From NCBI RefSeq assembly GCF_014931715.1, contig NZ_CP063164.1, positions 620,001-684,000 on the forward strand: a DNA stretch of 64,000 nt. Reading direction: 5' to 3'. Position numbers and translations under genes: made by a program. Shown in pieces: positions 2,231-43,810 of this stretch (position 1 is its first letter; each line of letters opens with the position of its first letter). This DNA is from Sulfurovum indicum. GTDB lineage: Bacteria; Campylobacterota; Campylobacteria; Campylobacterales; Sulfurovaceae. The notes under the pieces were generated by a model that saw nothing but the letters and a program-made list of their open reading frames with translations, made no database searches and had not been told where the DNA came from.

Positions 2231-2360
2231 GTTGTTTCCCTGCTTTACCATTATTAGTCTGCTGTTTGGTTCTGGCTCTGATGATCATAGAAGTCAAACG
2301 TTTCTTAAGTTTTATAGTATAAAATAACAAAATATGATATATTTTGTCATATTTTCTGCA

Positions 2361-2430
2361 ATAAAGCCAAACCTGTTGCGAGGCAGGGACGGAAAGCCAT
2401 GGGTCTTCCCAAGATCGCCAGGCCGCTCAG
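2361..2430 (+). promoter_or_regulatory. Cyclic-di-GMP-I (GEMM-I) riboswitch aptamer
   Basis: The segment matches the GEMM-I core in order: AAGCCAAACC (2364-2373), a P2 hairpin with a GNRA tetraloop (TGTT-GCGA-GGCA, 2374-2385), GGGACGGAAAGCC (2386-2398), a P3 hairpin GGTCTT-CCC-AAGATC (2402-2416), and the closing GCCAGGCCGCT. By position, G2366, A2393 and C2426 should be the ligand-contacting bases. The usual G-C pair next to the pocket appears flipped to C2367-G2392, and an adjacent P1 pair is A2365-T2427; both look like compensatory changes. The gene for an outer-membrane barrel starts 117 bases downstream. No clear terminator was found in between, so the direction of control is unknown. Confidence 0.85.
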
Positions 2431-2546
2431 AAATCACACATATTTTACAGTTATGCAGCTTAAAAGGCTTCCAGTGTCTTTTTGGAATGCGGGGTGTTCA
2501 AGTATGTATCAGGTAGTAAAACTGACTATACATAAAAGGAGAGAAA
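2431..2546 (+). promoter_or_regulatory. Leader/expression platform after the riboswitch
   Basis: This 116-base leader links the aptamer to the first gene. Weak inverted repeats are present (AGCTT/AGGCT at about 2458-2470 and TTCCA/TGGAA at about 2469-2487), but none is followed by a run of T. The Shine-Dalgarno AAAGGAGAG lies at 2535-2543. Control could be by folding near the ribosome site or by Rho; the sequence does not decide. Confidence 0.35.
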
Positions 2547-3158
2547 ATGAAAAAGGGAGTATTGTCTTTAGTGTCGATTCTGGCACTGAATGGAGTTGTG
2601 TATGCAGGAGGTAATATTGTACTTTCAGAACCAGCAGTGGAAGTACCGGCAGAGGTTTTGACAGGGTTCTATGTAGGTGTAGGCCTTGGACAGGCTGATG
2701 TCGATAACGATACCTCAAGGGAGAACTGGGACAGCAGTACACTCCTGTTCCAGGCAGGTTATCAGTTTAACCCGTATGTAGCTGTTGAAGGACGTTACAG
2801 TTTTGGTTTTAATATGGATTATGATAAAGGCGTTACACTGGGGACATATAATGGCATACCCCTGGATAATGATTTCTCAAGCTGGGGATTGTATCTAAAA
2901 CCGATATATCCGATAGGCAATTTCAATCTTTATGCATTGTTAGGATACGGAGGTCTTCAGCTGAGTGATATCAGAGGCGGGGATGCCTATGAGGATGGTC
3001 TCCAGTGGGGACTGGGTACAAGCTATAGCGTAACAGAACGTATCTCTGTGTTTATGGACTATGTCTCTTTGTATGATGATACAGGATTTGACTATGTAGG
3101 TACATTGGACAGCTGGAATGCCGATACATGGACGATCGGTATCTCGTATAAGTTTTAA
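2547..3158 (+). CDS. Outer-membrane beta-barrel protein, riboswitch-controlled
   Basis: 203 residues with a cleavable signal peptide (MKKGVLSLVSILALNGVVYA-G) and alternating hydrophobic strands (FYVGVGLGQADV, LLFQAGYQFNPYVAVEGRYSF, NLYALLGYGGL, WTIGISYKF). The final residue is Phe, as is usual for barrel proteins inserted by BAM. It belongs to the OmpA-like or OMP_b-brl small-barrel group; no peptidoglycan-binding domain is present. It is the first gene behind the c-di-GMP riboswitch and is followed after 12 bases by a lipoprotein gene. A surface or attachment role is inferred from that control, not shown. Confidence 0.8.
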   Translation: MKKGVLSLVSILALNGVVYAGGNIVLSEPAVEVPAEVLTGFYVGVGLGQADVDNDTSRENWDSSTLLFQAGYQFNPYVAVEGRYSFGFNMDYDKGVTLGTYNGIPLDNDFSSWGLYLKPIYPIGNFNLYALLGYGGLQLSDIRGGDAYEDGLQWGLGTSYSVTERISVFMDYVSLYDDTGFDYVGTLDSWNADTWTIGISYKF

Positions 3159-3170
3159 AAGGAGTTGGAG

Positions 3171-4367
3171 ATGAGAAGAGTATATAGAAAGATAGCATTG
3201 ATCGCACTATCGGGTATGGCAATGACAGCCTTAAGTGGATGTTTGGGAACAGGGGGAAGCACTTCGGAGAGTGGAGCAGGAGATGCATTCGGGTCTGCTT
3301 ATGTGCCGGCTTATCCGACTGAAGCTGATAGCTTTGAAGGAGCAACAGGTGACAACAACATGTCAACTGCATCAACGATAACTGTCGGTGAGCCGTTACA
3401 GGGGCGCAGTATTTTCCCTCAAGGTGACTATGACTGGGTCAAGGTAGAGTTGGAGGCAGGAGTTGTGTATGATTTGTTTACAACAAACCTGAATGAAACT
3501 GGTGATACATATCTTTATCTGTATGATGATAGTGGAAATGAACTGGATAGTGATGATGATCATATAGACTATGATAGTTTTATAGAGTTTAATGCAACAT
3601 ATACAGGAACTTTTTATTTGAAGGTGCGCTCTTACAGTGTTGAAGAGGCCACTTCATATGAGTTAGGGGTTCGTGTACATATAGATGAAGATAATGACGG
3701 ATACTCTGAACCATTTGACTGCAATGATAATAATGATACTATTTATCCCTTTGCAACTGAGATAGCAGGTGACGGTATTGACCAGGACTGTTCCGGTGTA
3801 GATGCAATTGCAAATGGTACACCAGATAATTATGAAGAAGATGATGACTTCAATAGTGCAAAGCCAATGCCGGAAACACAGGGTTCCTATGAGGAAGTAC
3901 AGCACCGTAATGATATATTCAGTCAAATGAGGACACTGCATAATACGTCAGATACAGATTTTTACACAGTGACTATTCCTGCATATTCAGCAGCATATGT
4001 AATTGAATATGCTGGATATATGAGTGGAAACACCTTGAATAGTTATGAGTGGTATGTATATGATGAGAACCACACAGAGATTAATAATGGTACACCAGGG
4101 GTATATGAATTAGTTAGAAATGACAGTAGTAGTGAAAAAACCTATTATATTGAAGTACGGTCAAATGGATCTGATATCGGGTGGTATGCTCCTGCTCTGG
4201 TACATATTGGAGAAGACAGAGACAGAGATGGTTACTATACAATGGATTGGTATGGAGACTGTAATGATGCAAATGCTTCCATTTATCCTGATGCCAATGA
4301 TGATAATGATACCGATGGTATAGATATGAACTGTGACGGTGTTGATGGTTATAATAGCAGTTATTAA
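3171..4367 (+). CDS. Lipoprotein with two PPC-like domains and two MopE calcium-type motifs
   Basis: 398 residues with a lipoprotein signal ending in the lipobox ALSG-C (Cys24). The mature protein alternates two module types. PPC-like beta-sandwich domains lie at about 55-155 (DYDWVKVELEAG, TYLYLYDDSGNEL, TGTFYLKVRSYS) and 215-335. Asp-rich MopE-type motifs lie at about 160-205 (DEDNDGYSEPFDCNDNND, then GIDQDCSGVD) and 345-396 (DRDRDGYY, DCNDANASIYP, GIDMNCDGVD). The motifs resemble calcium-binding loops with paired cysteines. The ATG at 3171 has AAGGAG six bases upstream and is preferred to an upstream in-frame TTG. Likely surface-exposed; function unknown. Confidence 0.8.
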   Translation: MRRVYRKIALIALSGMAMTALSGCLGTGGSTSESGAGDAFGSAYVPAYPTEADSFEGATGDNNMSTASTITVGEPLQGRSIFPQGDYDWVKVELEAGVVYDLFTTNLNETGDTYLYLYDDSGNELDSDDDHIDYDSFIEFNATYTGTFYLKVRSYSVEEATSYELGVRVHIDEDNDGYSEPFDCNDNNDTIYPFATEIAGDGIDQDCSGVDAIANGTPDNYEEDDDFNSAKPMPETQGSYEEVQHRNDIFSQMRTLHNTSDTDFYTVTIPAYSAAYVIEYAGYMSGNTLNSYEWYVYDENHTEINNGTPGVYELVRNDSSSEKTYYIEVRSNGSDIGWYAPALVHIGEDRDRDGYYTMDWYGDCNDANASIYPDANDDNDTDGIDMNCDGVDGYNSSY

Positions 4368-4382: not shown

Positions 4383-4826
4383 TTGAAATATAAAGCTGTC
4401 GTAGTAATCTTGGTTATAGGGGTTGGCGTAGTACTGTACGGTTTGCTGAAGCCAACTTCTCAGGTGGAGAAAAAAGGTAGATATATTCCACAAAATATAA
4501 TGCATGCTGTTTGGCCGACCAATAAAGCGAAGAGTGACATATCGCCGAAAGGGTCCCATGATAGTTACTCTCAAGCACATCAAAGTGATCCAAAAGAAGT
4601 GAAGGGCTCATCTTTAGTAGGGTCAGCAGCAGAACATGTTGAACGAGAAGCACTTTTTGCAACACGAAGAGAGAAGATAGAGGCTCGTAAACAGTATCAA
4701 AAAGAGCGTTATGAGTGGAGAAGAAGACTGAATAAAGTGTTACAGCAGGCAAAAAAAGATGGTGATTACTCAAAATACAATATGATCAAGGAGATGGAAC
4801 CTGACAAGGAATTATTTTTAAAGTAA
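4383..4826 (+). CDS. Small membrane-anchored hypothetical protein
   Basis: 147 residues; not recognised. An N-terminal hydrophobic stretch (KYKAVVVILVIGVGVVLYGL, about 2-21) should anchor it in the inner membrane. The remainder is hydrophilic and rich in Arg/Lys/Glu (about 95-130, EREALFATRREKIEARKQYQ), probably helical or coiled coil. It starts with TTG 15 bases after the lipoprotein gene, so it is probably the third gene of the riboswitch operon. The weak ribosome site and TTG start suggest low expression. Confidence 0.6.
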   Translation: MKYKAVVVILVIGVGVVLYGLLKPTSQVEKKGRYIPQNIMHAVWPTNKAKSDISPKGSHDSYSQAHQSDPKEVKGSSLVGSAAEHVEREALFATRREKIEARKQYQKERYEWRRRLNKVLQQAKKDGDYSKYNMIKEMEPDKELFLK

Positions 4827-39246: not shown

Positions 39247-39416
39247 TGTCTTTTGGTGACATTCTCTATATCATCGTAGCTTTTCTTTTTTCATACATGA
39301 CCTTTGTGATCATAAGAAATAACTTTCGTTCCAAATTTGATGAGGAGCAGAGACGAAAAGACCTTGTAGACGACTATGAAGATGACTATATATCAGACAA
39401 GGCAAAAAAAGAGTAA
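39246..39416 (+). CDS. Small single-pass membrane protein
   Basis: 56 codons. It reads M-S-F-G-D then a hydrophobic helix (ILYIIVAFLFSYMTFVII, about 6-23), followed by a basic then acidic tail (KDLVDDYEDDYISDKAKKE). The ATG overlaps the trmL stop (TAATG), a sign of translational coupling and of a real gene. No family recognised. A -10 box for glyS lies beyond it. Confidence 0.7.
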   Translation: MSFGDILYIIVAFLFSYMTFVIIRNNFRSKFDEEQRRKDLVDDYEDDYISDKAKKE

Positions 39417-41671: not shown

Positions 41672-43810
41672 TTACAGCTCTGTGATCACCCTGTTCCTTC
41701 CTTCGTTTTTAGCCTTGTAGAGTGCATTGTCTGCACGTTTAAGAACATCTTCAATTTTTGTATCGGTATCAGTTTGCAGAGCCGATACTCCTATGCTGAC
41801 AGTCAGTTTTATCGTATACCCCTCAAGAACTATCTCTTCTGAGGCAATGATTTTGCAAAGTCTTTGCGCATATTCGGCAGCTGTATTGATATCTGTTTCG
41901 GGAAGCAGTATGATAAATTCTTCTCCGCCAAAACGGAAAATATGGTCGAGACTGCGCATATGTTTTTTACAGACAGTAACAAGTTTTTGCAGTACAATAT
42001 CGCCATTGGCATGACCATAGTTGTCATTAATGCTTTTAAAATAATCTGCATCAATAATAAGAAGAGACAATGGCCTGCTGTTATGCTTTGAGCGAAGCAG
42101 TTCATAGTTGCTTATATCTTCGAACTTTCGTCTGTTGAGTGCGCCTGTAAGCGGATCGTAAAAGGCTATGTTCTCGAGATTCTCCGCCTTTTGCTGGTGT
42201 GCATGGATCTTGATCTCCTGTCTGTCACTTTTGAGCAGTTCGATCCTAAGGGCTTCATAGGCATCCTGAAGAAGTCCGAATTCATCTTTTGTGTGTTTCC
42301 GGAAAAAGTGGATATTCCTCTCTCCTTTTGAGAGAGCGATAAGCAGGTCGCTGAGTTTCTTGATGGGATCGTAGATGCTTTTTTCAAGTAAAAGAATAAA
42401 GTAGGTAAAAAGAATACCAAGCAGAACCAATACCCCTATCCACAGAAGAGGTACTGTAGTGAATGCTTCCGTTTTTCTGCGTGTATACTCCTGTATATGT
42501 TTGACCTCTCTATCGATAAATACTTTAAAAAGCTCAATACTCTCTGTCATGGTTTTAAACCACTCTTTGCTTGCAATGCCTGCCTCTCTGCCTTCGATGA
42601 TCTGTTTAATGATCGCTTCTGTATATTGCCGGGAGAGTTGGGCAGGCTCTTTATTAAGAAGTGAGAAAAATTCCTTTTTCTGGATTTCGTCGGCCTGTTG
42701 CAGAAAAACTTTTCGAAAGAACTTCTCCTGCTCGTCAAGTGTGATGAATTCTCTTTTGAACCATGTCTGTTTTGGTTTTTGAAGCAGTATTGTACCGATA
42801 GCACGTTTCAGACCCATCTGTTCTTTCTGATAGAGCAGTGAAGCAAGTGAGATTAAAGAGGAACGAAGCATTTTGTCCGCAACGTTTTTTGAAAGATGCT
42901 CTTCCTGATTCAAAAGCTGGTGGATCATAAGAGTATAGGTATTGAGGATGTGATGTATGCTGCACTTGTTTTGATCTGTGTTCTGACGGCACTTTTTGAT
43001 ACGGCTGTATTGAGTATCTATATTTTGAATCAGTTTTCTATACTTTTGGGGAGAATAGAGTTCTTTGATCTGCCCGGTATACTTCTCATAATATTGTTGG
43101 ACAAGGTGCTGTTGTGTAATGAGATCATTTTTTAAATTGCTATTTCTTTTAAAACTGTAGGCAATACTCAATCCACGTTCGAGCTGAAGAGCATTGGTCA
43201 GCCTGTTCATGCTTATGAAGGTCTGACTGCTGTTGTAGACTTTTCTGTTTGCCAGATAGTCATCATAGTGCTCTTTTATCATACTGAACACAAGTATTAG
43301 AATTACAAAGATCGGAATGGATGTAAGTGCCCAAAGCCGCATGCGTATTGTAATATGCCGGGAGAGTTTGTGAATGAGTTTCTGAAATAGTGATCTTTTC
43401 TTATGTAATGTTTCACTGTGTATATATTTGGTATATTTCAAGTCTTCTTTAATAATGTGGTTGACAAGCCAGTCAGCCAGAAACTGGTAGATGTTAAGTG
43501 CAGTCTCATGTGAATCTGCAGAGAAGAACTGCTCTTTAAGCTTTGGAAGTTTGTTTTGAAATTCCCTGTGAAGACGGATATGCTCTTCCAGTTCAGGAAA
43601 CCGATGTTTTTTCATCAAAACTTCTTCACGTGCAAAATGGGTGGTAACATACTGGTCAAGCCAGTCGAAAATCTCTTTGAGTATCTGGGGACTTTCGTGG
43701 TTTCTGATGGCTTCCAAAAGGGTATTTATTATAGAGATAAGTTCTTTATGGTCTTCATCAATTGCAGCTACACCGACACTTAAGCTCTCATCCCATTCAA
43801 ATGTGTGCAT
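41672..43810 (-). CDS. Hemerythrin-NIT-GGDEF diguanylate cyclase
   Basis: 712 residues. Residues 1-130 are a bacteriohemerythrin with the di-iron ligands His21, His58-x3-Glu62, His77-x3-His81 and His118-x4-Asp123. Membrane helices lie at about 159-177 and 453-475. Between them, a periplasmic part (about 190-440) resembles the NIT nitrate/nitrite-sensing domain (NRLTNALQLERGLSIAYSF). The C-terminal GGDEF domain (about 545-710) has an intact GGEEF active site near 627 and an inhibitory RSLD site five residues before it. It should make c-di-GMP in response to oxygen inside and nitrate outside; the inputs are inferred from domains. Confidence 0.88.
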   Translation of the reverse strand: MHTFEWDESLSVGVAAIDEDHKELISIINTLLEAIRNHESPQILKEIFDWLDQYVTTHFAREEVLMKKHRFPELEEHIRLHREFQNKLPKLKEQFFSADSHETALNIYQFLADWLVNHIIKEDLKYTKYIHSETLHKKRSLFQKLIHKLSRHITIRMRLWALTSIPIFVILILVFSMIKEHYDDYLANRKVYNSSQTFISMNRLTNALQLERGLSIAYSFKRNSNLKNDLITQQHLVQQYYEKYTGQIKELYSPQKYRKLIQNIDTQYSRIKKCRQNTDQNKCSIHHILNTYTLMIHQLLNQEEHLSKNVADKMLRSSLISLASLLYQKEQMGLKRAIGTILLQKPKQTWFKREFITLDEQEKFFRKVFLQQADEIQKKEFFSLLNKEPAQLSRQYTEAIIKQIIEGREAGIASKEWFKTMTESIELFKVFIDREVKHIQEYTRRKTEAFTTVPLLWIGVLVLLGILFTYFILLLEKSIYDPIKKLSDLLIALSKGERNIHFFRKHTKDEFGLLQDAYEALRIELLKSDRQEIKIHAHQQKAENLENIAFYDPLTGALNRRKFEDISNYELLRSKHNSRPLSLLIIDADYFKSINDNYGHANGDIVLQKLVTVCKKHMRSLDHIFRFGGEEFIILLPETDINTAAEYAQRLCKIIASEEIVLEGYTIKLTVSIGVSALQTDTDTKIEDVLKRADNALYKAKNEGRNRVITEL

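Follow-up and report, generated by a model that had tools for sequence, protein, structure and literature searches.

In c-di-GMP-I riboswitches (GEMM-I, Rfam family RF01051), the bases that contact the ligand are G20, A47 and C92 in the numbering of the Vibrio cholerae Vc2 aptamer (PMC4744006, PMC3764141), and an inter-helix pair, C44-G83, has also been described in Vc2 (PMC3764141). Another V. cholerae riboswitch, Vc1, is an ON-switch without apparent terminator or anti-Shine-Dalgarno sequence (PMC4744006). An A at position 20 characterizes the cGAMP-selective aptamers (GEMM-Ib), which control surface genes in Geobacter, and the A20G change turns a cGAMP aptamer into a c-di-GMP aptamer; Geobacter sulfurreducens has 17 GEMM-I riboswitches per genome (PMC6456294). 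Rfam also holds a variant family, RF03167 (c-di-GMP-I-GGC); we read GGC, from the Rfam consensus, as positions 20, 47 and 92.

Here we analysed a 64 kb stretch of the Sulfurovum indicum genome (the window), which contains an RNA element of this already well known riboswitch class and adds one further example to it. The element resembles the RF01051 members Vc2 and Vc1 in its fold, its G20/A47/C92 contacts, its C44-G83 pair, its GNRA tetraloop and its surface-gene target, but pair 21-46 is C-G where Vc2 has G-C, and P3 is shorter and the loop region different from those of RF01051 examples. With RF03167 it shares the top model score, a similar 5' junction (AAAG) and a short P3, whereas it lacks G47, the one contact position at which the RF03167 consensus differs. 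The cGAMP riboswitches of Geobacter share this fold, also act on surface genes and likewise occur in many copies per genome, but they carry A20, whereas the window aptamer and its relatives have G20.

A c-di-GMP-I aptamer in the leader of a surface-protein operon

When all 4227 Rfam families were searched, positions 2357-2431 of the plus strand matched RF03167 with 60.0 bits (E = 1.2e-11, curated cut-off 59), and a whole-genome scan gave RF01051 at the same place with 52.0 bits (E = 2.3e-9, curated cut-off 35). This is the sole match to an Rfam RNA family within the window. Our own family model, R1, built from 58 relatives among which is the window sequence itself, gives the aptamer 77.8 bits; a weak second R1 match at 39310-39381 (E = 0.19) is at chance level and was rejected.

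A first-pass annotation had placed a c-di-GMP-I riboswitch on this strand, with core, tetraloop and P3 in order, and had proposed a covariance-model search with RF01051 as a check. The class, the strand and the order of the elements were right, the GNRA tetraloop being GCGA at 2378-2381, and the RF01051 score lies well above its cut-off. The contact residues are indeed those of RF01051, although the top-scoring Rfam family is the GGC variant. The extent given there, 2361-2546, has to be revised at both ends, since P1 starts slightly upstream, at 2355, and 2432-2546 is leader outside the aptamer. From its sequence, we consider it very probable that 2357-2431 is a genuine, intact class-I c-di-GMP riboswitch in the 5' leader of an operon for surface proteins, a judgement that covers its identity and not its switching mode. 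The aptamer would be expected to bind c-di-GMP and to close P1 on binding, and c-di-GMP would control expression of the operon. The features of the locus are collected in Table 1.

Table 1. Features of the riboswitch locus, in window coordinates
Feature	Position	Strand	Basis
Sigma-70-like promoter candidate (TTTATA, 16 nt, TATGAT)	2311..2338	+	Consensus scan, 9/12 matches; chance level ~1 per region
Predicted anti-start strand, overlaps 5' P1 arm	2347..2359	+	Pairs with 2538-2550 in minimum-energy fold, core pairs 0.86-0.99
5' arm of P1 (UCUG), pairs with CAGA 2428-2431	2355..2358	+	Sequence; orthologous leaders
c-di-GMP-I riboswitch aptamer, model-matched extent	2357..2431	+	RF03167, RF01051, family model R1
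G20 equivalent, selects c-di-GMP over cGAMP	2366	+	G in 58/58 relatives; A20G effect in PMC6456294
First pair of P2-side stem, C2367-G2392 (Vc2 21-46, swapped relative to Vc2)	2367..2392	+	55 CG / 3 GC / 0 broken
P2 hairpin, GCGA tetraloop 2378-2381	2372..2387	+	Compensatory changes at all pairs, 97.9% of cells paired
A47 equivalent, stacks between ligand bases	2393	+	A in 58/58; G here in RF03167 consensus
P3 stem	2396..2423	+	98.1% of cells paired
C92 equivalent, Watson-Crick partner of one ligand G	2426	+	C in 57/58
3' arm of P1 (CAGA)	2428..2431	+	Sequence; conserved in orthologous leaders
Predicted partner of 3' P1 arm and C92 (2423-2433) in ligand-free RNA	2479..2492	+	Minimum-energy fold, pair probability ~0.45-0.64
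Shine-Dalgarno AAGGAG 2536-2541 and start codon ATG 2547-2549	2536..2549	+	Sequence
Outer-membrane beta-barrel protein, 203 aa	2547..3158	+	PF13505, E = 3.1e-19
Lipoprotein (LSGC lipobox), PPC domain and MopE-type metal-binding motifs	3171..4367	+	PF04151, PF11617; MopE structure match
147-aa ORF, probable third gene of operon	4383..4826	+	ORF

Covariation of the helices

Over 58 aligned aptamers, 92.5% of cells are paired and 17 of the 21 pairs show changes on both sides, against a mean of 9.6 for shuffled alignments; sliding the alignment register collapses the score. P1 is the weakest helix (58% of cells paired), and five leaders of orthologous barrel genes (L204, L200, L201, L186 and L191) keep its UCUG/CAG(A) arms. 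The invariant residues C2390, in P2, and G2417, in the P3 bulge, match the C44-G83 pair of Vc2. The RNA has the features of an RF01051 member, with a GNRA tetraloop on P2, the inter-helix pair and helices supported by covariation.

Two compensatory swaps at the ligand pocket had been proposed from the single sequence. That of C2367-G2392 was confirmed, with 55 C-G and 3 G-C among the 58 aptamers and none unpaired. As a novelty the 21-46 swap was rejected, an exact-pattern match finding it in more than 100 stretches from many phyla (among them Desulfobacterota, Methylomonas, Marinobacter and Vibrio). The other proposed pair, A2365-T2427, was wrong and was rejected from the alignment: its columns are mostly A/C and T/C, and U2427 pairs instead with A2360. 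This pair (Vc2 14-93), which adjoins P1, is G-C in 34, U-A in 4, G-U in 3, A-U in 1 and U-G in 1 of the 58 aptamers.

The ligand and the nature of the aptamer

In the pocket, G2366, A2393 and C2426 correspond to G20, A47 and C92, and 71 of 72 related aptamers carry this same triad, GAC. Since an A at position 20 gives selectivity for cGAMP and A20G reverts it (PMC6456294), G2366 points to c-di-GMP. A GEMM-Ib riboswitch selective for 3',3'-cGAMP would have an identical fold, and aptamers of that kind control surface genes in Geobacter, but we hold it to be very improbable here because position 20 is G in the window and in all 58 relatives. A little less remote, but still improbable, is membership of the c-di-GMP-I-GGC class, with a different or altered ligand being sensed. 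It would agree with RF03167 having the highest score and with the short P3 scaffold of these aptamers, which suits that model better; however, the RF03167 cut-off is cleared by only 1 bit, that of RF01051 by 17 bits, and since the RF03167 consensus has G at position 47 where the window has A2393, as do all 58 relatives, the window RNA lacks the change after which the variant is named. For this reason, the GGC label suggested by the best Rfam match was rejected. Finally, a decayed or chance structure would account for a C-C mismatch (2359/2428) that appears when P1 is set in the Rfam register. This is exceedingly unlikely: P1 is clean in the UCUG/CAGA register, the pocket residues are all intact, orthologues share the position of the element, and the match reaches E = 1.2e-11 over the entire Rfam library. 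We retain an ordinary, intact c-di-GMP-I aptamer.

Across Campylobacterota, many aptamers with A47 also pass the gathering score of RF03167, whose model over-collects ordinary c-di-GMP-I aptamers. Best-match labels from Rfam in this phylum should thus be checked at position 47.

The operon and its relatives

The barrel and lipoprotein genes predicted downstream in the first-pass annotation were both recovered in domain searches (PF13505; PF04151 and PF11617). Its description of a calcium-motif lipoprotein fits loosely: the lipoprotein bears MopE-type motifs, a family whose annotation is copper- or metal-binding. For the 147-aa ORF, the domain search returned no significant family. Homologous barrel genes are preceded by a c-di-GMP-I aptamer in seven other genomes, in two of which (L186, L204) a homologue of the lipoprotein gene follows the barrel gene; this recurrent placement speaks for the riboswitch assignment. 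The 55 first genes after related aptamers include eight barrels, a number that is partly due to barrel loci having been sought; others encode carboxypeptidase-regulatory-like domains, PilJ sensors, outer-membrane efflux proteins and Ig-like or lectin-like domains. The result also yields a short list of candidate adhesion genes.

A predicted translational switch

Transcription from the candidate promoter would begin about 10 nt upstream of P1. Between this candidate and P1 lies a perfect 9-base inverted repeat, AAAATATGA ... TCATATTTT (window 2328-2355), which is possibly an operator and whose 3' arm doubles as the predicted anti-start strand. No intrinsic terminator was found in the leader between the aptamer and the barrel gene, and a terminator-like site of any kind is present in only 10 of 73 leaders.

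In the minimum-energy fold, the 5' arm of P1 (2347-2359) is predicted to pair, in the absence of ligand, with the ribosome-binding and start region (2538-2550), which would bury the AUG, while the 3' arm and C92 would pair with 2479-2492. The first duplex has an energy of -10.1 kcal/mol, and 0.2% of shuffles are as good, several segments having been tested and the p-value being uncorrected for multiple tests. The predicted probability that the AUG is unpaired is 0.05 in the free RNA and 0.31 with the aptamer and P1 formed. In the energy model, the aptamer-plus-P1 state lies about 4 kcal/mol above the free ensemble, and switching would therefore depend on ligand energy; binding of the ligand could pay this cost. 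On c-di-GMP binding the two arms of P1 would pair with each other and free the AUG, so that the surface proteins would be expressed more strongly at high c-di-GMP, in the sessile state.

A translational ON-switch of this kind is the most likely mode at the barrel leader, with a probability that we judge to be about even. It is not established, because anti-start pairing at p<=0.05 is only slightly enriched (8 of 54 leaders; a control segment lying upstream gave 3 of 54) and is not clearly common to the orthologous barrel leaders. A functional aptamer that acts without sequestering the start codon, for example through RNA stability, Rho-dependent termination or as an OFF-switch, has somewhat short of an even chance. 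Orthologous leaders can be as short as 30-56 nt and have neither a terminator nor a shared anti-start strand, and the ON-switch Vc1 works with no apparent terminator or anti-Shine-Dalgarno sequence (PMC4744006). Against this, the start codon is predicted to be strongly paired to the 5' P1 arm both in the barrel leader and at a second locus of the same genome, L012, with prepilin-like genes. At this prepilin-like locus, the anti-start logic of the ON-switch appears to be the same and stronger than in the barrel leader, with a predicted duplex of up to -19.7 kcal/mol (0 of 2000 shuffles as good) and an AUG unpaired probability of 0.02.

A family-wide anti-Shine-Dalgarno segment was rejected, as no segment favoured its own start region over others. 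Among 64 leaders, no consistent change in Shine-Dalgarno accessibility was observed when the aptamer core was forced without P1.

c-di-GMP-I riboswitches in the genome and in Campylobacterota

The genome (2.21 Mb, one contig) contains four c-di-GMP-I aptamers, that of the window included. Two form a tandem pair at 356375-356584, ahead of a LamG-type surface protein and a lipoprotein, and a single one at 501014-501088 lies ahead of the gene for a 1235-aa protein, after which come ORFs whose N-termini are prepilin-like. At this last locus (L012 6440-6599, minus strand), 10-12 bases or so of the 5' P1 arm are complementary to the start codon region. Both tandem aptamers (L011 2385-2594) have C at Vc2 positions 24 and 43 where A and A would be usual, and L194 and L193 show this double change or one close to it (CC, CU), which suggests a coupled non-canonical contact.

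Of 175 genomes from the family of the host, 106 have RF01051 matches, as many as 21 in one genome. In the class sample, RF01051 was found in 24 of 298 genomes and RF03167 in 42 of 397, a frequency of c-di-GMP-I riboswitches of about 8-11%. As judged from these matches, c-di-GMP-I riboswitches are unexpectedly abundant in the host's family. The remark in the first-pass annotation that the class had not been described as common in Campylobacterota agrees with the open literature that we searched, but understates the abundance in this family. In that literature we found no paper linking c-di-GMP riboswitches to either Epsilonproteobacteria or Sulfurovum, and none linking Sulfurimonas to GEMM riboswitches. 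Direct RNA-level control of surface proteins by c-di-GMP would operate in a deep-branching, largely environmental group, for which we found none described.

We tentatively propose, with more doubt than confidence, that an enlarged repertoire of c-di-GMP-I riboswitches, reaching about 20 copies in a genome, is a main route by which c-di-GMP signalling in Sulfurovum and its relatives acts on adhesin, pilus and outer-membrane genes, and that some of these RNAs are simple translational ON-switches in which the 5' arm of P1 itself serves as the anti-start strand. The abundance in the host's family and this possible design of the P1 arm are both worth following.

On the side of c-di-GMP metabolism, the genome has 16 GGDEF and 10 EAL matches, a wealth of c-di-GMP enzymes that also speaks for the riboswitch assignment, and one GGDEF protein is encoded inside the window. 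In that protein (41672-43810, minus strand) the GGDEF domain was confirmed and the N-terminus is hemerythrin-like by eye; it is possibly an oxygen-linked diguanylate cyclase. Elsewhere, at L048 1243-1599 (G319), two aptamers on opposite strands are arranged back to back, separated by about 150 bases, and apparently serve divergent genes.
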